DNA of 64,000 nucleotides from Martelella endophytica (lineage in GTDB: Bacteria > Pseudomonadota > Alphaproteobacteria > Rhizobiales > Rhizobiaceae), in the NCBI RefSeq assembly GCF_000960975.1, contig NZ_CP010803.1:905501-969500 (forward strand), in the 5' to 3' direction. A program made the position numbers and the translations under genes. Positions 20,388 to 33,305 of this stretch are shown in pieces. The notes beneath the pieces were generated by a model. The model was not told where the DNA came from, did no database searches, and saw nothing but the letters and a program-made list of their open reading frames with translations. Numbering within the stretch: the first letter of the stretch is position 1; every line of letters starts with the position of its first letter.

Positions 20388-20700
20388 ATGACGAGACGAC
20401 CGCGCCGGAACCATAGCCCGGCTTTCAAGGCGAAGGTGGCGCTTGCCGCCATCCGAGGTGAGCAGACGCTGGTGGAATTGTCCCAGCAGTTCGACGTGCA
20501 CGCCAACCGGATCAAGCAATGGAAGGATCAGCTCCTTGAGGGGGGCGACAGGCATTTTTGGCGATGAAGCGAAGGCGGAACCGGCGGGACCAACCGTCGA
20601 TGTCAAAACCCTTCATGCCAAGATTGGCGAACTGACGCTGGAGAACGATTTTTTAGCCGAAGGGCTCGGCAAGGCGGGATTGCCGGGGGACAAGAAATGA
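20388..20700 (+). pseudogene. IS3 family transposase OrfA, frameshifted
   Basis: The start MTRRPRRNHSPAFKAKVAL and the stretch QFDVHANRIKQWKDQLLEG are typical of IS3 OrfA helix-turn-helix proteins. After LLEGG the frame closes, while the continuation (ATGIFGDEAKAEPAG, then KTLHAKIGELTLENDFL) runs in another frame to 20700. One extra G in the G6 run near 20540 explains the break. AGGAG precedes the start, and the end overlaps the orfB ATG. It is unlikely to give active OrfA unless the ribosome slips at the G run. Confidence 0.85.
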
Positions 20701-21677
20701 TCGACCGCTCACATAAACTGTCGGTCGCCCGTCAGGCGGAGCTTCTCGGTTTCAGCCGTGGCAGTGTCTATCATCGGCCTCGTCCGGTCTCTGACGACGA
20801 TCTGGCTCTGATGCGCCGGCTTGATGAACCGCATCTCGACTACCCGTTTGCCGGAAGCCGGATGTTGCAAGGGCTCTTGAGGGGAGAAAGGCTGGATACC
20901 GGGCGGCTGCACGTCGCCACGCTGATGAAGAAGATGGGCATCAAGGCGATATGCCGTCACCCGAACACGTCGAAACCAACGCCAGGCCACAAAATCTATC
21001 CCTACCTCCTGCGCAAGCTGGCGGTGATCCGGCCCAATCAGGTTTGGGCAATGGATATAACCTACGTTCCGATGGCTCGCGGTTTTGTCTATCTCTGCGC
21101 CGTCGTGGACTGGTTCAGCAGGAGGGTGCTGTCGTGGCGGCTGTCGATGACGAAGCGCCAGCGCGCATGGATCGCCATGACGCTTGCACAGGAGACCCCG
21201 ATCCTGCTTTTGGATGAACCGACCACCTTTCTCGACCTCGTGCATCAGATCGAGGTGATGGAACTTGTCGGCGAGCTGGTGAACGGGAGCGGCAAGACGG
21301 TCGTCGCTGTCCTGCACGACCTCAACCAGGCCGCCCGTTACGCCGATCACATGGTCATGCTCAGCGCAGGCAAGGTGGCGGCGACCGGCCGCCCGGAGAC
21401 CGTGATGACAGAAAAGGGCATCCATACGGTTCGGTTTACGCACGACCATCATCAGCGATCCGGTCACCGGAACGCCCATGTGCATCCCCGCAGCGCGTCC
21501 GAATGTTTGACAGCGCGGACCACCACTTCCACACTGGTATTCAGCAATTCTATAGCTTTGCGGTCATCGGCCCCCAGATGCATTATCCTGTGCCTTGATG
21601 ATGTGCACTGTCCACCGCCAGATTCGCGACCAATCATGACCTTTGACCGTTTCTTGCCGGATGAAGTTCATTGGTAA
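20697..21677 (+). pseudogene. Chimeric reading frame: IS3 OrfB N-terminus joined to an ABC ATPase fragment
   Basis: Residues 1-152 are IS3 OrfB: SHKLSVARQAELLGFSRGSV, YPFAGSRMLQGLL, and the start of the catalytic core NQVWAMDITYVPMARGFVYL with the first catalytic aspartate. The second aspartate and the glutamate are missing. At residue 153 the frame runs straight into KRQRAWIAMTLAQ of an ABC transporter ATPase, and after about residue 240 it leaves that frame too. The 326-codon frame is open but cannot encode a working transposase. Confidence 0.85.
21153..21515 (+). pseudogene. FecE/FepC-type iron-siderophore ABC ATPase, 3' fragment
   Basis: The segment after the ABC signature is present: QRAWIAMTLAQETPILLLDE (Walker B), then PTTFLDL and the switch histidine in VVAVLHDLNQAARYAD. 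Walker A and the LSGGQ residues are absent. Near 21440 two bases appear to be lost, and the natural ending TIISDPVTGTPMCIP continues in another frame to a stop just after AARPNV. The order of motifs matches ferric siderophore ATPases. No permease gene is near, so this is a relic. Confidence 0.75.
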
Positions 21678-22239: not shown

Positions 22240-22256
22240 TTGATAATAGTTGATAA
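22240..22256 (+). promoter_or_regulatory. Direct repeat upstream of parD1, candidate autoregulatory operator
   Basis: TTGATAA occurs twice with a ten-base period (22240-22246 and 22250-22256). The same pair precedes the second ParDE copy at 52902-52918. ParD-type antitoxins repress their own promoters by binding repeats of this kind. Confidence 0.45.
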
Positions 22257-22297
22257 ATCACATATATTGTCGTCATTCCAATACGATGGAGGACCGC

Positions 22298-22564
22298 GTG
22301 ATTAGCGCCGATCTGGGAAAGCAGCTTGAGAGCTATATTCAGCAACTCGTGGAGACAGGCCGCTACGGCTCGAAAAGCGAAGTGCTGCGTGAAGGCGTGC
22401 GACTGGTCCAGGACCGCGAAACCCGGCTTGCCGCGCTGGATGCCTCGATCATGCGCGGCATCGCCGATGCGGACGCTGGCCGGACCAAGTCGGCGAGCGA
22501 CGTCTTCAACCGTCTCGACGCGAAATACAGTGCAATGGCTGACAAGTCCGAAAAATCGGCATGA
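22298..22564 (+). CDS. parD: ParD family antitoxin (copy 1)
   Basis: A short ribbon-helix-helix antitoxin with ISADLGKQLESYIQQLVETG and SKSEVLREGVRLVQDRE, followed by a toxin-wrapping tail. I prefer the GTG at 22298 because GGAGGA sits five bases before it; an ATG at 22286 would add four residues but lacks a binding site. The stop overlaps the toxin start as ATGA. It differs from copy 2 at only about four positions, so the two antitoxins probably recognise both toxins. Confidence 0.88.
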   Translation: MISADLGKQLESYIQQLVETGRYGSKSEVLREGVRLVQDRETRLAALDASIMRGIADADAGRTKSASDVFNRLDAKYSAMADKSEKSA

Positions 22565-22857
22565 TCCGTGAGTTTTCCCGAGAGGCCGAAAACGATCTTG
22601 AGCAGATCGCCGATTATATTGCTGAGCGAAACCCAAGACGCGCCCTTTCATTCCTCCGGGAACTGCGGAGCATCTGTGAGGATATTGTCTTTAATCCCGA
22701 CGCCTTCGCCCTCGTCCCGCGCTATGAACATCATCAGATCCGTCGACCCGTTCACGGCAACTACCTGATCTTCTACCGCGTTGACAGTGCAAAGGTGGTC
22801 ATCATTCACATTCTTCATGGCGCCACCTACTATGGCGCAATCCTCTTCGGCGACTGA
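22561..22857 (+). CDS. parE: ParE/RelE superfamily toxin (copy 1)
   Basis: The protein has 98 residues: MIREFSREAENDLEQIADYI, then ALSFLRELRSICEDI, VPRYEHHQIRRPVHGNYLIF and VVIIHILHGATYYGAIL, the normal ParE layout of two helices and a sheet. ParE toxins usually act on DNA gyrase. Translation is coupled to parD. Copy 2 at 53223 differs at about ten positions, including Y to D near the C-terminus, which may change activity. Confidence 0.9.
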   Translation: MIREFSREAENDLEQIADYIAERNPRRALSFLRELRSICEDIVFNPDAFALVPRYEHHQIRRPVHGNYLIFYRVDSAKVVIIHILHGATYYGAILFGD

Positions 22858-23179: not shown

Positions 23180-23194
23180 TAATGGTATTACATT
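23176..23194. promoter_or_regulatory. Zur-like operator of the azt operon
   Basis: AATGTAATGGTATTACATT has perfect eight-base arms around a three-base centre. It resembles zinc uptake regulator boxes and sits 16 bases before the first codon of a zinc transporter operon. Zur would repress the operon when zinc is plentiful. Confidence 0.7.
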
Positions 23195-23209
23195 ACGCGC
23201 TTCCCATCT

Positions 23210-24004
23210 ATGAACGAGCCCCCTTCAATGACCGAGGCCTGCCTGACCTTTTGCGATCTGACGCTTGGATATTTCCGGCATCCCGCCGTGGACCACCTGA
23301 ACGGAATTGTCGGCAAGGGCAGCCTAACGGCGGTGGTCGGCGGCAACGGATCTGGTAAATCGACGCTGATGAAGGGCATTGTCGGGTTGCTGCGGCCGCT
23401 TGGCGGCAGTTGCGCGGTCGCGCCCGGCACGCGTCTGGCCTATCTGCCGCAGCTCTCGGAGCTCGACCGCAGCTTTCCCGCCCGGGTCGTGGACCTCGTC
23501 TCGCTGGGTCTGTGGCCGCGGCGCGGTGTTCTCGGCCGGCATCGCACCGAGGACCGGCGGGCGGTCAGCGACGCGCTGATGGCCGTAGGTCTGGAGGGCT
23601 TCGAGAAGCGTCCCGTCGACAGCCTGTCCGGCGGCCAGCTGCAAAGGGCGCTGTTTGCGCGGGTTCTGGTGCAGGACGCCGATCTCATTCTTCTGGATGA
23701 GCCGTTCAACGCGGTCGATGCGCGCACGATCACCGATCTTGTGGCGCTGATCAAGAACTGGCACGGGGAGCAGCGCACGGTCATGGTTGTCGTTCATGAC
23801 CTCGATCTTGTGCGCGAACACTTTCCCGAAGCGCTGCTGCTGGCCAGGCGGCCCATCGCCTGGGGCGATGTTCATGGCACGCTTTCGGCGGAGAACCTGC
23901 TGCGCGCCCGCCATTACAGCGAGCCCTTCGATGAACATGCGCCGTGGTGTACGCCCGATGGCGATGCAGGCCTGCGGCAGGTCTCGGGGGGAGCGCGATC
24001 ATGA
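23210..24004 (+). CDS. aztA: Zinc ABC transporter ATPase AztA
   Basis: A 264-residue ATPase with Walker A GGNGSGKST, signature LSGGQLQRALFARVL, Walker B ADLILLDEPFNAVD and switch histidine VVVHDLDL. It belongs to the metal-type (cluster 9) ABC ATPases. The order aztA, aztB, aztC, aztD matches the Paracoccus zinc uptake locus. The first ATG at 23210 was kept; a second at 23228 is possible as neither has a strong ribosome binding site. Its stop overlaps aztB. Confidence 0.88.
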   Translation: MNEPPSMTEACLTFCDLTLGYFRHPAVDHLNGIVGKGSLTAVVGGNGSGKSTLMKGIVGLLRPLGGSCAVAPGTRLAYLPQLSELDRSFPARVVDLVSLGLWPRRGVLGRHRTEDRRAVSDALMAVGLEGFEKRPVDSLSGGQLQRALFARVLVQDADLILLDEPFNAVDARTITDLVALIKNWHGEQRTVMVVVHDLDLVREHFPEALLLARRPIAWGDVHGTLSAENLLRARHYSEPFDEHAPWCTPDGDAGLRQVSGGARS

Positions 24005-24870
24005 TCTACGACGCTCTGGTGCTGCCCTTCATCGAGTTCGCCTTCATGCAGCGGGCCCTTGCCGGCGCGCTGATGCTGTCGCTCAGCGCCTGCCCGGTCG
24101 GCGTGTTCCTGATGCTGCGGCGCATGAGCCTGACCGGCGATGCGATGTCGCATGCGATCCTTCCGGGCGCGGCCGCCGGCTTTCTGCTCTATGGCCTCGA
24201 AATCGTGCCGATGACGATCGGCGGGCTTGTCGCCGGCATCTTCGTGGCGCTCGGGGCCGGCGCTATCGCCCGGCTCACCGTGCAGAAGGAAGATGCCTCG
24301 ATGGCCGCCTTCTATCTGATTTCGCTGGCGCTTGGCGTGATGATGGTGTCGCTGCGCGGCTCCAGCGTCGACCTGATGCATGTCCTGTTTGGCACGGTTC
24401 TGGCGCTGAACGACGGTGCGCTGACACTGATCGCGCTGGTCTCCGTCACCTCCATGGTTCTCGTCGGCCTGTTCTGGCGGGCGCTGGTGGCCGAATGCAT
24501 GGACCCGCTGTTCCTGCGCTCCGTCTCCCGCCTTGGCTCGCCGGTGCATTTCATCTTTCTCGGCCTCGTGGTCATCAATCTGGTGGCGGGCTTTCAGGCG
24601 CTCGGCACGCTCCTGTCCGTCGGGCTGATGGTGCTGCCGGCAGCCGCCGCCCGCTTCTGGACGCAACGCGTTTCGACCATGTGCGCGCTCGCCATCGCCA
24701 TCGGCTTTGCCTCCTCCCTCGTCGGCCTTTTGCTGTCCTATCACGCATCGCTGCCGTCCGGCCCGGCGATCATCCTGTCGGCCGGCGCGATCTATTTCGT
24801 TTCGGTCGTCGCAAGCCCGCGCGGCCTTCTTCTGTCGCGCCTGCCGAAATCGCTGCATCGCGCAGCCTGA
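24001..24870 (+). CDS. aztB: Zinc ABC transporter permease AztB
   Basis: The protein has 289 residues and about eight hydrophobic segments, with the metal-permease motif MSLTGDAMSHAILPGAAAGF near residue 42 and GFQALGTLLSVGLMVLPAAA near 200. It forms the membrane channel for Zn2+ delivered by AztC. The ATG at 24001 overlaps the aztA stop as ATGA. Confidence 0.9.
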   Translation: MIYDALVLPFIEFAFMQRALAGALMLSLSACPVGVFLMLRRMSLTGDAMSHAILPGAAAGFLLYGLEIVPMTIGGLVAGIFVALGAGAIARLTVQKEDASMAAFYLISLALGVMMVSLRGSSVDLMHVLFGTVLALNDGALTLIALVSVTSMVLVGLFWRALVAECMDPLFLRSVSRLGSPVHFIFLGLVVINLVAGFQALGTLLSVGLMVLPAAAARFWTQRVSTMCALAIAIGFASSLVGLLLSYHASLPSGPAIILSAGAIYFVSVVASPRGLLLSRLPKSLHRAA

Positions 24871-24894: not shown

Positions 24895-25827
24895 ATGAAG
24901 ACACTGACAGCCCTTTTCACAAGCCTGATCGTCACCGCTGCATTCTGCGCGCCCGCCCATGCCGAGGACGAAAGGCTTGCCGTGGTCGCCAGCTTCTCGA
25001 TCATCGGCGACTTTGCCGAACAGGTCGGCGGCGACCGCATCACGCTTCGAACGCTGGTCGGACCGGACAGCGATGCCCATGTCTATGAGCCGCGCCCGGC
25101 CGATGCCATGGCGCTGGCGCGGGCCGATGTCACCCTCGTCAACGGCCTGCAGCTCGAAGGCTTCATGGGCCGTCTGATCGAGGCGAGCCAGACGGACGCG
25201 CCGATCACCACCGTGACCGATGGCGCCGATATCCTCAACGATCCCAATGGCGGCCATTATCACTATATCGACGGCAAGGCGATCTTCCACGCCGCGCCGA
25301 ACGATCCGCATGCCTGGCAATCGGTCAAAAATGCCAAAGTCTATGTCGAGAACATCGAAAAGGCCTTCTGCGCCGCCGATGCGGAAGGATGCCCGACATA
25401 CGAGGCCAATGCCGAGGCCTATCTCGAAAATCTGACGGCGCTCGATGCGGAAATCCGGGCCACGGTCGATGCGATCCCTGAGGATCGCCGCGTCGCCGTC
25501 GTCGCCCATAATGCGTTCCGCTATTTCGAGCACGATTACGGGATTACCTTCCTTTCGCCGCAGGGCGTTTCGACCGAGTCCGAAGCATCCGCCGCGGATG
25601 TCGCCTCGCTGATCCGTGAGATCCGGGAAAAGCGCGCGGCGGCCGTCTTTGCCGAAAACATTTCCGACGCCCGCCTCGTCGAACAGATCGCGTCCGAAGC
25701 CGGACTCGAGCTTGTGGGAACGCTCTATTCGGATGCGTTGTCTTCAGTCGACGGCCCCGCGCCGAGCTATATCGACATGATGCACTACAATGTCGAAACG
25801 CTCGCGAACGCCATCAACAACGGCTGA
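24895..25827 (+). CDS. aztC: Zinc-binding periplasmic protein AztC
   Basis: The protein has 310 residues and a signal peptide (MKTLTALFTSLIVTAAFCA, cleavage near PAHAED). It is a cluster A-I metal-binding protein: probable Zn2+ ligands are the histidines in DSDAHVYEP, NDPHAWQSV and AVVAHNAFRYF and the aspartate in LYSDALSSVD. The GGHYHYIDG loop is the histidine-rich region that can take zinc from a chaperone. It lies 24 bases after aztB. Confidence 0.93.
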   Translation: MKTLTALFTSLIVTAAFCAPAHAEDERLAVVASFSIIGDFAEQVGGDRITLRTLVGPDSDAHVYEPRPADAMALARADVTLVNGLQLEGFMGRLIEASQTDAPITTVTDGADILNDPNGGHYHYIDGKAIFHAAPNDPHAWQSVKNAKVYVENIEKAFCAADAEGCPTYEANAEAYLENLTALDAEIRATVDAIPEDRRVAVVAHNAFRYFEHDYGITFLSPQGVSTESEASAADVASLIREIREKRAAAVFAENISDARLVEQIASEAGLELVGTLYSDALSSVDGPAPSYIDMMHYNVETLANAINNG

Positions 25828-25834
25828 CACCCAT

Positions 25835-25866
25835 AAAAAGGGCGAGGCCGAACCTTGCCCATTTTT
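25835..25866 (+). terminator. Hairpin with T-run between aztC and aztD
   Basis: GGGCGAGG and CCTTGCCC pair with one G-U around a five-base loop, flanked by AAAAA before and ATTTTT after. It probably stops part of the transcription, so aztD may be made at a different level from aztABC or from its own promoter. Confidence 0.65.
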
Positions 25867-25896
25867 GTTACGTTATACCATAAAGGAGAGACGAAT

Positions 25897-27708
25897 ATGA
25901 AACGATGGATCCTGGGTGCATCCGCACTCGCGATTTCACTTGGCGCTCCGGCGGCGTTTGCCGAGGACCATGAGGACAGCGTCACCCTCTACCGCGTTTT
26001 CGTCGGCGATCATTCCGATTCGAAAGTCACGGCCTTCGACCTCGGTGAGCCCGACCATCGCTGGTCCTTCGACACCGCCGGCCAGAACAAGCTTTATGCG
26101 GTCAATGACGGCGCGGCCATCGTCGCCGTCCAGTCGGACAGCGACGCGGTGCATTTCATCGACAGCGGCATCTCGCTGCATTCCCATGGCGACCATTCCG
26201 ATATCGACATCGAGGAGCCAATCGCCGTCGAGGGCAGCCTCACCGGCCCGCGCCCGTTCCACATCATCGATCATGACGGCAAGGTCGTCATCAATTTCGA
26301 CAAGGGCGGCTATGCCGCAATCGTTGATGCCCATGAACTTTCCCATGGCGAGATTGAAACCAGCGAGTTGAAGCAGGAGCGCGCCCATCACGGTTTTGCC
26401 GCCCCCGTCGGCCAGTACTGGGTCACGAGTGTTGCCACCGACACGCCGGTCGACGGCACCCGCATCGGCCTGCGCGCCGTGAGCGAAGACGGCGAGCCGG
26501 CCGGCGATGTCGCGACCTGCACCGGTATTCACGGCGAAGCCTTTTCCGGCGCCTATCTGGCCGCCGGTTGCCAGGAAGGTGTTCTGACCGTGACCCCGGG
26601 CGAAGACGGCCCCGTCTTCGAGATGCTGACTTACCCCGACGATCTGCCGGAAGGACAGACCACGGGCACCCTGCTCGGCGCGAAAAGCATGCAGGTGTTT
26701 CTCGGCAATTACGGCAAGGATGGACTCGTCGTCATCGACCCGGCCGAAGAACCGCATTTCAGCTATATCGAACTGCCTTTCCGCCGCGTCGACTTCGCGC
26801 TCGATCCGGCCAATGCCCGCTACGGCTATGTGCTAACCGAGGACGGCAGCCTGCACCAGATCGATATTCTGGACGCCAGCCTCACGGAAAGCGCCAAGGT
26901 CACCGAACCCTATTCGATGGACGGCCACTGGAACTATCCGCGTCCGCGTATCGCCATGGCCGGCGATGAAATCGTGATGACCGATCCGAATGCCGGCCTC
27001 GTCCGCCGCATCGCCAAGGATGGCCTCACGGAAGTCGGTAAGATCGACGTCGGCGGCATGCCCTACAACATCGCCGTTGCCGGCGGCAGCGGCATGGTGC
27101 ACGAAGGCGAACATGACCATGAAGGCCACGATCACGCGCATGACGACCATGCCCATGCCCACGATCATGGCGACCCGCAGATCGCCAAGGGCTATTTCGA
27201 GGACAGCCAGATCGCGGACCGTACGCTTTCCGACTGGGAAGGCGACTGGCAGTCGGTGTATCCCTACCTTCAGGACGGAACACTCGATCCGGTGATGGAA
27301 CACAAGGCCGAGACCGGCAGCATGACCGCCGAAGAATACAAAGCCTATTACGACACCGGCTACAAGACCGACGTCGGGCGGATCACCATCAAAGGCGACA
27401 CGGTCACCTTCTATCGGGATGGCGAAGCGGTTGAAGGCCACTACGAAAGCGACGGCTATGAAATCCTGACCTATGCCAAGGGCAACAGGGGCGTCCGCTT
27501 CATCTTCGAAAAGACCGGTGGCGACGCGGCCGCACCGCAGTTCATCCAGTTCTCCGACCACCGGATCGCGCCGGCGGATGCCGATCACTATCACCTCTAC
27601 TGGGGTGACGACCGCGCCGCCGTGCTGGAGGAACTCACCAACTGGCCGACCTACTACCCGTCATCACTAAACGCCGACCAGATCGTCGACGAGATGCTCG
27701 CGCACTGA
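25897..27708 (+). CDS. aztD: AztD zinc metallochaperone fused to a C-terminal ZinT domain
   Basis: A 603-residue secreted protein. A signal peptide (ISLGAPAAFAED) is followed by an AztD-like beta-propeller to about residue 400 with an early SLHSHGDHSD metal loop. A histidine-rich linker (about 401-426) leads to a complete ZinT/YodA domain: LSDWEGDWQSVYPYLQDGTL, TGYKTDVGRITIKGDTVTFY and the metal site SDHRIAPADADHYHLYWG. AztD is known to pass zinc to AztC; ZinT is a periplasmic zinc binder that assists ZnuA. Known AztD proteins are shorter, about 400 residues as I recall. AAGGAGAG precedes the start. Confidence 0.9.
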   Translation: MKRWILGASALAISLGAPAAFAEDHEDSVTLYRVFVGDHSDSKVTAFDLGEPDHRWSFDTAGQNKLYAVNDGAAIVAVQSDSDAVHFIDSGISLHSHGDHSDIDIEEPIAVEGSLTGPRPFHIIDHDGKVVINFDKGGYAAIVDAHELSHGEIETSELKQERAHHGFAAPVGQYWVTSVATDTPVDGTRIGLRAVSEDGEPAGDVATCTGIHGEAFSGAYLAAGCQEGVLTVTPGEDGPVFEMLTYPDDLPEGQTTGTLLGAKSMQVFLGNYGKDGLVVIDPAEEPHFSYIELPFRRVDFALDPANARYGYVLTEDGSLHQIDILDASLTESAKVTEPYSMDGHWNYPRPRIAMAGDEIVMTDPNAGLVRRIAKDGLTEVGKIDVGGMPYNIAVAGGSGMVHEGEHDHEGHDHAHDDHAHAHDHGDPQIAKGYFEDSQIADRTLSDWEGDWQSVYPYLQDGTLDPVMEHKAETGSMTAEEYKAYYDTGYKTDVGRITIKGDTVTFYRDGEAVEGHYESDGYEILTYAKGNRGVRFIFEKTGGDAAAPQFIQFSDHRIAPADADHYHLYWGDDRAAVLEELTNWPTYYPSSLNADQIVDEMLAH

Positions 27709-27778: not shown

Positions 27779-27791
27779 CGCCTCCGTGTCA

Positions 27792-28874
27792 ATGAGGAAT
27801 GGATTGAAGCAGTTCTACGACCCCGTTGCGGTAACGCTGCTGACCGGCTTTCTCGGCTCCGGCAAGACGACGCTGATCAATGAACTGGTCAGCGATCCGC
27901 GCATGCATGAGACCGCCGTGATCATCAACGAGTTCGGCTCCATCGCCATCGATCACGATCTCGTCCGCACCGGCTCGGAGCGCTACATCCGCACCACGAC
28001 AGGCTGTCTCTGCTGCTCCGCCACAAGCGATATCCGCACCTCGCTTTTCGAATTGCACGAGGCCCGGATGAAAGGCGCAATCGGCCCGATCAGCCGCGTG
28101 GTCATCGAAACCACCGGGCTTGCCGACCCCGCTCCGATCATCAACAGCCTGATCCCCGGCGGCGCGCCGGCAACCGCGCTGAGGGACCACGCCGTTGCGC
28201 GCCACTTCTATCTGCAGGGCGTCATCACCACCTTCGATACGATTGACGGACGCTCGACGCTTGCAAGCTTCATCGAGGGCTGGAAGCAGTTGGCCTTTGC
28301 CGATGCGGTGATCCTGACGAAAACCGATATCGCCGAGGAAAAACGGAACTGGGCGCGGGAGCTTGCCGTGCTCAACCCGGCTGCGCGCTTTCACGACCGG
28401 AATGGGCCCGGCTTCGACCTTGTCTCGCTTCTCGGCGAAACGCCCTATTCGGTGTCGCAGAAGGCGGAAGACGTCAATGGCTGGCTGGCGATGGAACGGC
28501 TCTCCCCGCACCCGGAGCACGACCACGACCCCAATCGCCACGGCGACGAGATCGAGGCGTTTTACCTGACCAGCGAAACGCCGCTTGACCCGGATGCGAT
28601 CGGCATTCTGCTGGGCGTTCTCGTCAGCCCGCAAAACCGCGGCCTCATCCGCATGAAGGGGCTGGTCGCGCTCAGCGATGATCCCGAAAGGCCAATGGTG
28701 ATCCACGCCGTGCAGCACAGAATGGACCCGACCGTGCGCCTGCCGCAATGGCCAGGTGAGGAACGCGGCACGCGGATCGTGCTGATCGGCATGGACCTCC
28801 CGCAACAGCAGATCCGCGCGCTTTTCGACGCCCTTGTCGCGCGCTCAAAGAAAAGCAGGAGGAAAACCGCTTGA
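27792..28874 (+). CDS. COG0523 (CobW/ZigA-type) GTP-dependent metallochaperone
   Basis: The protein has 360 residues with Walker A LTGFLGSGKTTL, the metal motif GCLCC, VVIETTGLADPAP and the GTP specificity motif TKTD. A histidine-rich stretch (HPEHDHDPNRHGDE) precedes the C-terminal domain. COG0523 GTPases next to zinc uptake genes are induced under zinc limitation and are thought to deliver zinc to client enzymes. The ATG at 27792 was kept; a GTG at 27786 and a TTG at 27804 are alternatives. Confidence 0.88.
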   Translation: MRNGLKQFYDPVAVTLLTGFLGSGKTTLINELVSDPRMHETAVIINEFGSIAIDHDLVRTGSERYIRTTTGCLCCSATSDIRTSLFELHEARMKGAIGPISRVVIETTGLADPAPIINSLIPGGAPATALRDHAVARHFYLQGVITTFDTIDGRSTLASFIEGWKQLAFADAVILTKTDIAEEKRNWARELAVLNPAARFHDRNGPGFDLVSLLGETPYSVSQKAEDVNGWLAMERLSPHPEHDHDPNRHGDEIEAFYLTSETPLDPDAIGILLGVLVSPQNRGLIRMKGLVALSDDPERPMVIHAVQHRMDPTVRLPQWPGEERGTRIVLIGMDLPQQQIRALFDALVARSKKSRRKTA

Positions 28875-29158
28875 GCAGTGCTTTCGTGAACCCGCTCGCC
28901 CCGAAAAAACCGGACGTCATCGAGTCCGCGCGCAGGATCAAGAGCTGGACACGCACGTGTTTGAAGATCGACGATGCAACCATCGTCTCGGTCAACGAAC
29001 TCGCCTGCCACCTCCCCGGTTGTCCGCCGAAGGAAACGGTCATTCTGGTGATGGCGGGGCCAAACGACACAGGTCAGTTTTCCATCCACAAGGCGATGGC
29101 GGATGTCACGTTGGAGGACGTCAGCCTTGGGGCGACGGATGTTCAGGACGATGGATGA
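28871..29158 (+). CDS. Small conserved-looking protein with a CHLPGC motif
   Basis: A 95-residue protein I cannot assign. It has RIKSWTRTCLKIDDATIVSV and NELACHLPGCPPKETVILVM. Three cysteines, two of them in CHLPGC, could bind metal. Its TTG start overlaps the stop of the COG0523 gene as TTGA, so the two are translationally coupled and a partner role in metal delivery is a reasonable inference. No signal peptide is present. Confidence 0.65.
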   Translation: MSSAFVNPLAPKKPDVIESARRIKSWTRTCLKIDDATIVSVNELACHLPGCPPKETVILVMAGPNDTGQFSIHKAMADVTLEDVSLGATDVQDDG

Positions 29159-29715: not shown

Positions 29716-30759
29716 ATGACCACGTTCATGACCCGTCTCGCATGGGCCGGCGCAATCAGCCTTGCCAGCCTTTCCGCTGCCAATGCCCACATGACGCTCG
29801 AAACCGGCGAAGCACCGGCCGGCGGCGGCTACAAGGCCGTATTGCGCGTTCCCCATGGCTGCGATGGCGCGGCGACCACCGAAATCCGCGTTCAGGTGCC
29901 GGAAGGCTTTTACAGCGTGAAGCCGATGCCGCATGCCGGCTGGGAGCTCGAAACCGTCACGGGCGCTTACGCCGAGACCTATATGAACCATGGCATGCCG
30001 GTCAGCGAAGGCGTGACCGAGGTGATATGGAAGGGCGGCGAATTGCCCGACGCCTATTACGATGAATTCGCAATGCGCGGCTCGCTGTCGGCCGATATCG
30101 CGCCCGGCACGGTGCTCTATTTCCCGGCCGTTCAGCTTTGCGCCGATGGCAGCGCCAACCACTGGACCGGTACGGGCGAGACAAGTGACGCCGAACCCGC
30201 GCCCAAGCTGACGGTGACGGCCGCCGGTCACGGACATGGTGGCCACGACGACCACGCCCCAATGTCTCATGACATGAGCCATGATATGGACCACGCCATG
30301 AGCGAGGACATCAAGCTTGGTGATCTCGACATCACCGGCGCCTTCGCCCGCGCCACCCTGCCCGGCGCACCCGTCGGCGGCGGGTTCCTGTCAATCACCA
30401 ATAATGGCGATACCGACGATCGCCTCATCGCCGCCTCATCCGATGCCGCAGGCGACCTGCAGCTTCACAACATGCGCATGGATGGCGAGGTGATGAAAAT
30501 GTACCAGATGACCGATGGTATTCCGGTTCCCGCTCACGAGACTGTGGAGCTTTCGCCGGGCGGCCTGCACATCATGTTCATGAAGCTGAATGGTCCGCTT
30601 GTCGAAGATACGGTCGTCGATGTCGAGCTGACCTTCGAGAAGGCGGGAAAGGTGACCGTGCCCTTCGCCGTCAAAAGCATCGCCGCGAAGGAAGCCGGCC
30701 ACGACATGCATGGCATGGATCATGACCACGCCGACCATGGCGACATGAAGGCGAACTGA
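29716..30759 (+). CDS. YcnI (DUF1775) - PCuAC fusion, periplasmic copper chaperone
   Basis: The protein has 347 residues. A signal peptide ends in SAANAHMTLE, so the mature protein starts with the copper-binding histidine typical of YcnI. Residues 25-165 are DUF1775 (VPHGCDGAATTEIRVQVPEG). A methionine/histidine linker (SHDMSHDMDHAMSED) leads to a PCuAC domain with the H-x-n-M copper site: LHNMRMDGEVMKMYQM and HIMFMKLNGPL. The C-terminus is also rich in H and M. It precedes sco and probably feeds copper to cytochrome oxidase assembly. Confidence 0.92.
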   Translation: MTTFMTRLAWAGAISLASLSAANAHMTLETGEAPAGGGYKAVLRVPHGCDGAATTEIRVQVPEGFYSVKPMPHAGWELETVTGAYAETYMNHGMPVSEGVTEVIWKGGELPDAYYDEFAMRGSLSADIAPGTVLYFPAVQLCADGSANHWTGTGETSDAEPAPKLTVTAAGHGHGGHDDHAPMSHDMSHDMDHAMSEDIKLGDLDITGAFARATLPGAPVGGGFLSITNNGDTDDRLIAASSDAAGDLQLHNMRMDGEVMKMYQMTDGIPVPAHETVELSPGGLHIMFMKLNGPLVEDTVVDVELTFEKAGKVTVPFAVKSIAAKEAGHDMHGMDHDHADHGDMKAN

Positions 30760-30886
30760 GTTTCAGTCACCGCACCGACCCCGCACAGCCTGACCGGCGA
30801 TGCGGGGCGTTCCCAAATCGCACAAGAGCGTCTGCCGGGCCGGCGACGGCCCCGCGGACCCGTGTGCGCAAGCAGGAATTCAGGAC

Positions 30887-31495
30887 ATGAAGAACTTCAG
30901 AAGGGCCCTCTGGGGGTCCATCGCAGCCATCTGCGTGGTGATCGTCTGGCTGGTCTATCAGATCCGCGAGACGAACGAAGAGATGATGCATGTCCCCATG
31001 GGTCCGGACTTCACGCTAACGGCGGATGACGGCTCCCCGATAACGCAGGCTGCCTTCCGGCAGAAGCCGACCGCGCTGTTCTTCGGCTTCACCCATTGCC
31101 CGGAAGTCTGCCCGACCACGCTCTACGAACTGAACGGCTGGCTGCACGAGGTCGATCCCGACGGCGACAAGATCGACGCCTACTGGATCTCCATCGACCC
31201 CGACCAGGACACGCCGGAGATGATGGGGCTGTATCTTTCCAACGTCACCGACCGGGTCACCGGCATTTCCGGCGACCCGGACAAGGTGCGTGCCATGGCC
31301 GATGGCTTCGGCATCTATTACGAAAAGGTGCCGCTCGATCCGAACGACCCGGACGGCGACTACACGATGAACCACACGGCCTCGGTGTTTCTCCTGAATG
31401 ACGGCGGCGTGCTGCAGAGCACGATCTCCTACAAGGAGGACTCGGCAACCGCCGTCGCGAAGCTGAAGAAGCTGATCGAAACCGACAATGGCTGA
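30887..31495 (+). CDS. Sco1/SenC family copper chaperone
   Basis: A 202-residue membrane-anchored thioredoxin-fold protein. The N-terminal anchor is LWGSIAAICVVIVWLVYQI; the copper site is CPEVC in FFGFTHCPEVCPTTLYEL with the distal histidine in YTMNHTASVFLL. Sco proteins build the CuA centre of cytochrome oxidase or supply copper to related enzymes. It overlaps the next gene by eight bases. Confidence 0.93.
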   Translation: MKNFRRALWGSIAAICVVIVWLVYQIRETNEEMMHVPMGPDFTLTADDGSPITQAAFRQKPTALFFGFTHCPEVCPTTLYELNGWLHEVDPDGDKIDAYWISIDPDQDTPEMMGLYLSNVTDRVTGISGDPDKVRAMADGFGIYYEKVPLDPNDPDGDYTMNHTASVFLLNDGGVLQSTISYKEDSATAVAKLKKLIETDNG

Positions 31496-31862
31496 ACTCA
31501 GGGCAGCGCGCGACCTCATCGGCGGCGCTGTGCTGGCGTTTCTGGTGCTGTTTTCGCTGGTGCCGGCCGGGGTCATGCCGGTTGCGACAACGCACGGCGT
31601 AGCGGTCGTCATCTGCACCGGCCATGGTCCGCTGGAGATCGCGCCAGACCCGCAGACAGGAGGGCCTGCCGGAAAATCCGGTCAGGGCAGCCCCTGCGAC
31701 TGGGCTATGGCGCACGGCCTGTTCAGCCTTCCTTATGTCGCGCTTCCCGTACCGACCGGGAGCGGCGCATTTGTGATCGCCCAAGACCGGTGGACGACCG
31801 TGCTTGCGCACGCGCACGCCACAGTCCTGCCCCCGGCGACCGGTCCCCCTTTCGCATCATGA
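31488..31862 (+). CDS. DUF2946-like protein (copy 2)
   Basis: The protein has 124 residues with an N-terminal hydrophobic helix (LIGGAVLAFLVLFSLVPAGV) followed by VVICTGHGPLEI and GSPCDWAMAHGLF, the cysteine/histidine pattern of DUF2946 proteins. The start overlaps the end of sco. Together with copy 1 it frames the copper chaperone genes. Confidence 0.75.
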   Translation: MAELRAARDLIGGAVLAFLVLFSLVPAGVMPVATTHGVAVVICTGHGPLEIAPDPQTGGPAGKSGQGSPCDWAMAHGLFSLPYVALPVPTGSGAFVIAQDRWTTVLAHAHATVLPPATGPPFAS

Positions 31863-31904
31863 GTTTCAAAACCCGTTGAAACCTCATTGAAGCGAAAGAA
31901 AATC

Positions 31905-33305
31905 ATGACAGATACGACCCTCAGGGCCGCGACCCCGCCGGCGGCAGCCGCGAAAAAATACTATTATCTTGCCTGGCGATGGCATTTCTACGCCGGCCTC
32001 TACGTCATTCCCTTCCTCTGCATGCTGGCAGTCACCGGCCTGACCATGCTCTGGATCTCCTGGTCGGCGGGGCTGGGCGCCGAGCGCATGGCGGTCACGC
32101 CGCAGGGCGAAGCGATGGCAGTCAGCACGCTCGAGACGGCGGCAGAGGCAGCCGTTCCCGACGGCCGTGCCACGCAGTATATATCGCCGCTCGCCGACAA
32201 CCGCATAGCCGCCTTTGCCGTCGAAACCGACGCCGGCACCACCGGCGTGGCGCTCGATCCCTATTCCGGCGCGGTGATGAAAACCTTCCCCTGGCGTGCC
32301 GGCTGGTACGACTTCGCAAACAAGGTCCACGGCACGCTGATGCTGGGCGATTTCGGCGACCGGATGATCGAGATTGCGGCAAGCCTCGCGATCATCATGA
32401 TCGTGACCGGCCTTTATCTTCACTGGCCCCGCAACGGCTCCGGCTGGCGCTCAGCGCTGGCGCCTCAGCTTTCTCTCAGGAAGAGGGCCTTGTGGAAATC
32501 CCTCCATGGCGTCACCGGAATGTGGATCTCGCTGATCCTACTCGTCTTCTTGCTGTCCGGCCTCAGCTGGGCCGGCGTGTGGGGCGGCAAGATGGTGCAG
32601 GCCTGGAACACGTTTCCCGCCGAAAAATGGGGCGCGCCACTCTCCGACAGCACTCATGCCGATATGAACCATGGCGATGGCAAGGAAGTTCCCTGGGGGC
32701 TGGAGCAAACGCCGCTACCGGAATCAGGTTCGCTCGCGGGCGTCGAAGCGATCGCCGGAAAGGTCGATATCGACAGCGTCGCCGCCTTCGCCGGCAGCCT
32801 CGGCTTCAACGGCCGCTTCCAGCTCAACCTTCCGAAAGACACCACCGGCGTGTGGACCATCAGCCATGACAGCATGTCCAATGACGGCCCGAACCCGACC
32901 GCCGACCGGACGATCCATATCGACCAGTATACCGGCAGGGTGCTGGCGGATATCCGCTTTTCGGACTATTCGCCCTATGCCAAGGCAATGGCCGTCGGCA
33001 TCGCCTTCCATGAAGGCGATCTCGGCGTCTGGAACCTCGTGCTCAACACCACCTTCTGCCTGTCCGTCCTTCTGGTGTCGATCTCGGGCGCCATCATGTG
33101 GTGGAAACGCCGCCCGGCCACTGCCGGCAAGCGCCTATTCGCCCCGCCCAGACCGCAGGACATCCCCTTCTGGAAAGGCGCGGCCCTGCTCGTCGTCACG
33201 CTCGGGATCATTTTTCCCATGGCCGGGCTTGCCATCGCATTCATCCTGCTGCTGGATGCGAAACTGCTGCGGCTCGTTCCGAGCATTCGGCGCGTGCTGA
33301 GCTAA
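31905..33305 (+). CDS. PepSY-domain membrane protein (PiuB-like)
   Basis: A 466-residue protein with about four hydrophobic helices: WHFYAGLYVIPFLCMLAVTG at the N-terminus, MIEIAASLAIIMIVTGLYLH, then others near 200 and 380-450. PepSY-like segments lie in the periplasmic loops (ATQYISPLADNRIAAF, IHIDQYTGRVLADIRFSDYS). Such proteins accompany iron or copper uptake systems and may act as membrane reductases; histidines in the helices could hold heme. The position suggests a copper role. Confidence 0.85.
   Translation: MTDTTLRAATPPAAAAKKYYYLAWRWHFYAGLYVIPFLCMLAVTGLTMLWISWSAGLGAERMAVTPQGEAMAVSTLETAAEAAVPDGRATQYISPLADNRIAAFAVETDAGTTGVALDPYSGAVMKTFPWRAGWYDFANKVHGTLMLGDFGDRMIEIAASLAIIMIVTGLYLHWPRNGSGWRSALAPQLSLRKRALWKSLHGVTGMWISLILLVFLLSGLSWAGVWGGKMVQAWNTFPAEKWGAPLSDSTHADMNHGDGKEVPWGLEQTPLPESGSLAGVEAIAGKVDIDSVAAFAGSLGFNGRFQLNLPKDTTGVWTISHDSMSNDGPNPTADRTIHIDQYTGRVLADIRFSDYSPYAKAMAVGIAFHEGDLGVWNLVLNTTFCLSVLLVSISGAIMWWKRRPATAGKRLFAPPRPQDIPFWKGAALLVVTLGIIFPMAGLAIAFILLLDAKLLRLVPSIRRVLS

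Follow-up and report, generated by a model that had tools for sequence, protein, structure and literature searches.

A conserved AztD-ZinT fusion in alphaproteobacteria: a candidate two-module zinc shuttle

Results

A fused aztD-zinT gene directly behind aztABC

The window analysed here, a stretch of 64,000 nucleotides from Martelella endophytica (NZ_CP010803.1, positions 905,501 to 969,500), contains the zinc transporter genes aztABC and, directly downstream of them, a single gene in which an AztD zinc chaperone is joined to a complete ZinT domain. The features of this locus, in window coordinates, are as follows.

23182..23196, minus strand: Zur-box-like site ahead of aztA, one mismatch
23210..24004, plus strand: aztA, zinc ABC transporter ATPase (NF040873, 249.9 bits, above cut-off)
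24001..24870, plus strand: aztB, zinc ABC permease (NF040871, 313.5 bits, above cut-off)
24895..25827, plus strand: aztC, zinc-binding protein with a short three-His loop, GGHYHYIDGKAIFH (NF040870, 371.8 bits, above cut-off)
25840..25860, plus strand: weak terminator-like hairpin in the gap between aztC and the fusion (one found against 0.3 expected)
25867..25881, plus strand: Zur-box-like site, GTTACGTTATACCAT, 30 bases ahead of the fusion ATG, one mismatch to the Paracoccus denitrificans motif
25897..27708, plus strand: aztD-zinT fusion gene, one uninterrupted ORF of 603 aa from ATG to stop (NCBIfam AztD and Pfam ZinT)
25897..25962, plus strand: Sec-type signal peptide, residues 1-22, read by eye (...GAPAAFA/EDHEDS)
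26002..27087, plus strand: AztD beta-propeller domain, residues 36-397 (NF038015, 6ck1 and model strands)
26185..26202, plus strand: AztD zinc site 2 ligands His97, His100 and Asp102 (168 of 168 aligned rows; 99, 102 and 104 in P. denitrificans)
26260..26532, plus strand: AztD zinc site 1 ligands His122 (26260-26262), His165 (26389-26391) and His212 (26530-26532), by alignment
27100..27102, plus strand: His402, site 2 ligand and final residue ahead of the linker (168 of 168 rows; the C-terminal His408 in P. denitrificans)
27103..27177, plus strand: His-rich disordered linker, residues 403-427 (low pLDDT and composition)
27178..27705, plus strand: ZinT domain, residues 428-603 (PF09223, 281.4 bits)
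27559..27594, plus strand: ZinT zinc ligands His555, His564 and His566, by alignment (spacing 9 and 2)
27786..28874, plus strand: COG0523/CobW-type GTPase (PF02492 and PF07683; best NCBIfam matches below cut-offs)
28871..29158, plus strand: 95-aa protein overlapping the GTPase gene (no Pfam or NCBIfam match)

The AztD profile NF038015 matched the fusion at 384.6 bits (E 3.4e-115) over its whole length (profile positions 1-356 of 356). This score falls below NCBI's naming cut-off of 400 bits, as do those of other AztDs, such as the unfused AztD of G409 (380 bits). The same N-terminal half resembles the solved AztD of P. denitrificans (6ck1; E 6e-178, residues 2-402), while the C-terminal half matched PF09223 far above its gathering cut-off of 27 (profile positions 4-181 of 181) and resembles both the ZinT domain of AdcA (7jja; E 2.6e-59) and Escherichia coli ZinT (E about 1e-55). 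An AlphaFold2 model built from 78 aligned sequences (mean pLDDT 86.1, pTM 0.64) predicted two confident domains, with beta strands across residues 28-401. The pLDDT was below 50 at residues 1-25 and again at residues 403-426, where disorder starts straight after the last propeller strand (389-401). In a Pfam search the cluster A-I binding-protein domain, PF01297, was absent from the fusion, the N-terminal half of which is AztD. A reading of the gene made earlier from the sequence alone had described one secreted protein composed of an AztD propeller, a His-rich linker and a full ZinT domain. Both profiles, the matches to solved structures and the ligands agree with that description, and the domain search it proposed matched AztD at residues 36-397 and ZinT at residues 428-603.

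The GTPase encoded behind the fusion is a probable zinc-stress partner. The 95-aa protein that follows contains a CHLPGC motif; its homologues on plasmids mostly (7 of the 10 listed) fall under GTP-binding protein annotation, and a similar ORF of 93 aa stands behind the GTPase in L025. Farther upstream, the frame at 20697-21677 is a composite in which the start of an IS3-type integrase (HTH_21, rve) is continued by the last part of an ABC transporter ATPase domain, apparently a remnant of a mobile element insertion, and a ParD/ParE toxin-antitoxin pair (22250-22857) lies between it and aztA. Beyond the zinc genes, genes for a DUF1775-PCuAC fusion, SCO1/SenC and PepSY_TM at 29716-33305 form an apparent copper-handling cluster.

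Zinc ligands and the junction between the halves

Site 1 and site 2 of AztD have been defined in solved structures (PMC6689063, in the parts used here and below), and the ligands of both are retained almost without exception. Among 168 AztD rows, fused and unfused, the equivalents of His122, His165 and His212 were kept in 167, 168 and 168, respectively, the sole exception among all AztD ligands being a Tyr at the His122 position of P0088; two cysteines, 208 and 225, were likewise conserved in 168 of 168. The ZinT ligands are held by the motif SDHRIAPADADHYHLYWG, which begins at residue 553, and are spaced like His452, His461 and His463 of AdcA (in the portion of PMC7858048 used). They were kept in 107, 107 and 106 of 107 fused rows and in all 57 free ZinTs. 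The loss of metal ligands in homologues that the earlier reading had named as evidence against itself was not seen; the AztD and ZinT ligands are near-invariant.

In P. denitrificans AztD, His408 is at once the C-terminal residue and a site 2 ligand (PMC6689063). Its counterpart in the fusion, His402, is invariant in A1. Counted from the site 2 His, a median of one residue, the His itself, is left in 63 unfused rows (range 1-73), and in the 101 fused rows whose linker could be read, the stretch up to ZinT has a median length of 23 residues (13-57) and contains 7 His. Long His-rich tails also occur in some unfused AztDs, for example P0094 and P0122. An HxHxH motif stands at most 16 residues ahead of ZinT in 180 of 186 fused proteins and in 58 of 63 free ZinTs; as it is common to free ZinTs too, it probably arrived together with ZinT.

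The termini of AztD adjoin the zinc transfer site, and a His-rich N-terminal motif close to that site apparently plays no role in transfer to AztC (section 4.1 and other parts of PMC7463823 used here). The linker of the fusion may thus be dispensable too. Because ZinT is tethered directly behind His402 of site 2, a local handover of zinc from ZinT to this site of the propeller would make anatomical sense.

Distribution of the fusion

The M. endophytica genome consists of one contig of 4.8 Mb, and its single ZinT match is the fusion. ZinT was present in 117 of the best 120 homologues listed for the whole fusion, 112 of which were at least 580 aa long, and in 90 of the best 120 listed for the propeller alone; the loci fetched contained 48 distinct fused genes. 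Its single frame and its recurrence in homologues exclude the possibility that the fusion as such stems from a frameshift or an assembly error. As judged from sequence comparison, the AztD-ZinT fusion is real and conserved, and it occurs in many alphaproteobacteria.

The survey of genomes that the sequence-only reading had called for was made in the family of the window. A full-length AztD was encoded in 67 of 247 genomes (G314, G338 and G470, which have fragments only, stand outside the 67) and was fused to ZinT in 19 of them. In all 19, the fusion was the only ZinT match. A free full-length ZinT was found in none of these 19, in 3 of the 48 genomes with an unfused AztD and in 35 of the 180 genomes without a full-length AztD, a count that omits the ZinT fragments of G309, G349, G396 and G443. 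The distribution is patchy: of four Martelella genomes searched, two had the fusion and two had neither AztD nor ZinT. An even draw over the class (289 genomes) gave a strong AztD match in the window's genome and one other only. Named carriers among the matches listed included Martelella, Agrobacterium, Aureimonas, Devosia, Phyllobacterium, Labrenzia and Paracoccus, all of which we take to be alphaproteobacteria.

On plasmids, 8 of 177 matching records cover at least 80% of the query. Four plasmid loci were read out; three carry intact fused frames, and that of Sinorhizobium meliloti SM11 is cut at the start. The record of L035, a locus with a broken frame, is named Marinicella, and its propeller part is about 92% identical to that of the window; the record name may be wrong.

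Binding proteins available to the fusion

AztC (at least 319 bits) was found in 13 of the 19 fused genomes of the family. Its gene lies just upstream of the fusion, in the same direction, in 12 of the 19, and adjoins it on the other strand in G483. AztC is missing from the other six (G498, G462, G335, G294, G424 and G530), where the best score was at most about 227 bits; their six fusions retain every AztD ligand. Typing covered one binding protein each in seven of the 19 fused genomes, namely, these six and the window's. ZnuA was the best NCBIfam match in all seven, and was above the cut-off in four. The ZnuA-like protein of the window's genome has a His-rich loop and scored 254.3 bits (cut-off, 268). 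The fusion directly follows the ZnuA-like gene, on the same strand, in G462 and G294.

AztC is also absent from 20 of the 48 genomes with an unfused AztD, compared with the 6 of 19 with a fused one. These figures led us to reject a special role of the fusion in making cells independent of AztC, and the absence of AztC, being as frequent with unfused AztD, gives no special sign that the fusion serves ZnuA. In G477, an unfused AztD is encoded directly behind another cluster A-I binding protein, without AztC. This arrangement, together with the 20 of 48, suggests that AztD may have clients besides AztC.

The AztD of P. denitrificans transfers zinc to AztC and, according to the same part of the source, passes none to ZnuA (PMC6689063). 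A service to ZnuA would therefore depend on the ZinT half alone. Since the fusion is the only ZinT match of every fused genome surveyed, its ZinT half probably also performs the usual ZinT job for ZnuA. Whether the client is AztC or ZnuA probably varies from genome to genome.

Nineteen fused loci without a close AztC were read out (ORFs of at least 90 aa, over 4.5 kb upstream or to the contig end). Within that distance, ten show no azt genes (L004, L008, L010, L022, L025, L026, L027, L029, L031 and L044), and four others (L002, L006, L013 and L035) have scraps of aztA or aztC. The binding proteins encoded upstream in L012, L033 and L116 have a long His-rich loop that replaces the short AztC loop; both propeller types are represented.

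Candidate Zur control

Sites were searched with the Zur motif of P. denitrificans (Table 7 of PMC5387054, of which a part was used). With up to two mismatches, the window gave three matches where 0.10 were expected; two of the three overlap each other at aztA. With up to one mismatch, the whole genome gave five matches at four places, and a reversed control pattern gave none. The four places are ahead of aztA, ahead of the fusion, in the gap that separates znuA from a divergent ABC ATPase gene, and ahead of another CobW-like GTPase gene; the genes at the last two were identified by eye, znuA by profile. Other fused loci had a box (up to two mismatches, within 200 bases upstream) in 27 of 49 cases and none in 22, the 49 counting the gene of G439 twice, as L135 and L155. 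Among the ten fused loci without azt genes nearby, eight have a box, L010 and L027 being the two without.

In P. denitrificans, the authors found no Zur motif in the aztC-aztD gap and used that gap as a negative control (in the portion of PMC5387054 used). In contrast, the Martelella fusion has a putative Zur box of its own in this gap. As far as motifs can tell, the fusion is controlled by Zur.

Separate histories of the two halves

Trees were built from 168 AztD rows (271 before removal of near-copies at 88% identity) and 164 ZinT rows (257 before, 90%). Left out were the partial P0053, P0087, P0091, P0093, P0095 and P0142, together with broken-frame loci and rows covering only part of the domain. 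In the AztD tree, unfused proteins stand between the fused ones and split them into three or four groups. The tree shows at least 15 changes between the fused and unfused states, 10 of them forced by well supported branches, and the fused propellers come from several deep lineages. A single clade of all fused AztD halves was rejected (AU p 5.6e-80; 85 rows chosen among the 168), and so was a single clade of the fusions other than type A (p 1.3e-6), a group that was named after the first tree was seen.

Most fused domains cluster in the ZinT tree, with propeller types mixed. One branch with a support of 93 has 50 of the 57 free ZinTs and two fused ones on its far side. The test did not reject one clade of fused ZinT (p 0.17; 95 locus rows of the 164) or a separate clade of type-A fused ZinT (p 0.20; 95 rows). 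As neither was rejected, the resolution of the ZinT tree is weak, and the case for a mosaic leans more on identities and DNA profiles.

Identities were compared over 29 operons with AztC, 21 with type A and 8 with type B propellers. Mean identities within A and between A and B were 65.9 and 65.1 for AztC, 76.1 and 74.7 for ZinT, and 78.3 and 79.3 for AztB (13 of the 29 operons), whereas those for the propeller were 73.9 and 41.4. DNA identities of L039 or L034 to L166 trace the same outline along the operon: 65-94% in aztABC, about 35-56% in the first two thirds of aztD, 54-72% in its last third, and 66-85% in the linker and ZinT. The pairs L037 and L166, and L099 and L154, show this profile from aztC on and differ upstream of aztC. 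By these comparisons the two halves are of different history, and operons that are alike in other respects differ in the propeller only. The mosaic could have arisen by exchange of the propeller while ZinT stayed in place, or by several transfers of ZinT.

Discussion

The fusion combines features of three known systems. With the AztD of AztABCD, represented by the P. denitrificans and Citrobacter koseri proteins (6ck1 and 6cmk), it shares the propeller fold, both zinc sites, the two cysteines, a signal-peptide-like start, the position behind aztC and a Zur-box match at the operon. Both solved AztDs stop at the site 2 His or a short His tail, whereas the fusion continues into a complete ZinT. 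With ZinT/YodA of E. coli and Salmonella it shares the whole domain, the three His ligands and the preceding His-rich stretch; however, ZinT/YodA is a free periplasmic protein, and in the fusion ZinT is the C-terminal half, and the genome has no further ZinT match. Streptococcal AdcA also carries a C-terminal ZinT on another zinc protein, behind a linker of 11 aa (25 aa in the fusion). The partner in AdcA is the transporter's own cluster A-I binding protein, whereas that in the fusion is a chaperone that loads a separate binding protein. Moreover, AdcA is a Gram-positive lipoprotein, while the fusion has, by eye, an ordinary Sec-type start. The parallel with AdcA drawn in the sequence-only reading, with a different partner, therefore holds: ZinT is C-terminal via a linker, and PF01297 is absent.

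That reading had also supposed the combination to be undescribed, and no description of an AztD-ZinT fusion was found in the literature searched. In one study, 577 AztD sequences and their neighbourhoods were analysed, and the parts of it used here mention a ZinT fusion for AdcA only (PMC6689063). What is new relative to the earlier reading is the fusion's own putative Zur box and the separate histories of its halves.

We consider the chances about even that the fusion is a Zur-controlled, secreted, two-module zinc shuttle which serves whichever binding protein is present. Under zinc starvation, Zur would release aztABC and the fusion gene. The open cleft of ZinT and the His tether would gather periplasmic zinc, and the tether would hold it within reach of AztD site 2. 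From there, the propeller would pass zinc to AztC where present, as does the AztD of P. denitrificans, and the ZinT half could supply ZnuA as well, the protein that ZinT usually works with. The fusion would thus replace a free ZinT and link one periplasmic zinc pool to the available cluster A-I binding proteins, which in the window's genome would be AztC and ZnuA.

The earlier reading was narrower, a two-stage scavenger in which zinc moves linearly from ZinT over the linker and AztD site 2 to AztC as the sole client. Its anatomical part is plausible: ZinT is joined at site 2, aztABC lies just upstream in the window with the three His of the AztC loop retained, and AztC adjoins the fusion in 13 of the 19 fused genomes. 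Its exclusive part does not fit the six fused genomes without AztC, which have ZnuA-like proteins and keep every AztD ligand, nor the ten loci without azt genes upstream, most of which have a Zur box of their own. We therefore regard AztC as sole client as rather unlikely. A passive periplasmic zinc store, made up of three zinc sites and a His tether with no directed transfer between the halves, seems improbable to us. In its favour, P. denitrificans AztD normalises zinc accumulation, and not growth, when binding proteins are lacking (in the part of PMC7731109 used), AztD occurs without AztC among fused and unfused genomes alike, and the predicted model, with its pTM of 0.64 and disordered linker, gives no sign of a fixed domain arrangement. 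On the other hand, the conserved junction at the site 2 His and the HxHxH ahead of ZinT suggest more than storage, even though free ZinTs mostly share the latter, and zinc transfer to AztC is an established activity of the P. denitrificans AztD.

The fused ZinT could be seen as a portable loading module. Joined behind the His of the transfer site, it would have remained while distant propeller lineages took the place in front of it, or it would have been carried onto them; it would allow an AztD to supply AztC or ZnuA, with zinc passing two chaperone domains of one protein on its way to the binding protein. We offer this wider view as speculation, with little expectation that all of it is right. 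An interaction of ZinT with ZnuA has been shown and metal transfer has not, in the passages of PMC6689063 used, while the transfer from AztD to AztC can be tracked by AztC fluorescence (PMC7463823, in part). A natural chain of ZinT and a chaperone makes the handover of zinc from ZinT to a partner directly testable. In addition, the survey indicates that AztD, fused or unfused, often occurs without AztC.

The fusion in public records

Source names for the fusion vary, and include AztD, ZinT, cadmium-induced protein and substrate-binding protein. Public gene calls sometimes reduce it to a ZinT without signal peptide or propeller. Among 120 short ZinT proteins listed, 12 are exact suffixes of fused frames, and 23, partly overlapping the 12, have an AztD remnant motif in their first 70 residues. 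Shortened calls of this kind leave the fusion under-reported, with a predicted product that lacks the signal peptide and the propeller.

Such NCBI "ZinT family" proteins that start inside the fused frame, and the broken frames of four related loci (L035, L041, L053 and L061), might be taken as signs that annotation, frameshift or assembly had joined two genes, but with a clean single frame in a one-contig genome, ZinT in nearly all of the best homologues, 48 distinct fused genes, and 10 of the 12 suffixes being N-terminally cut calls on intact frames (the other two, P0150 and P0203, come from the broken L035 and L041), such an artefact has next to no likelihood.

P0155, P0164, P0169, P0187, P0202, P0243 and others are ZinT calls of about 200-230 aa that start in the last propeller strands or the linker. 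P0191 is an exact suffix of an intact frame in L248, and P0148 and P0149, seen as protein records only, also start in linker sequence. Short relics that miss most of the propeller, P0153, P0156 and P0178, are listed as well.
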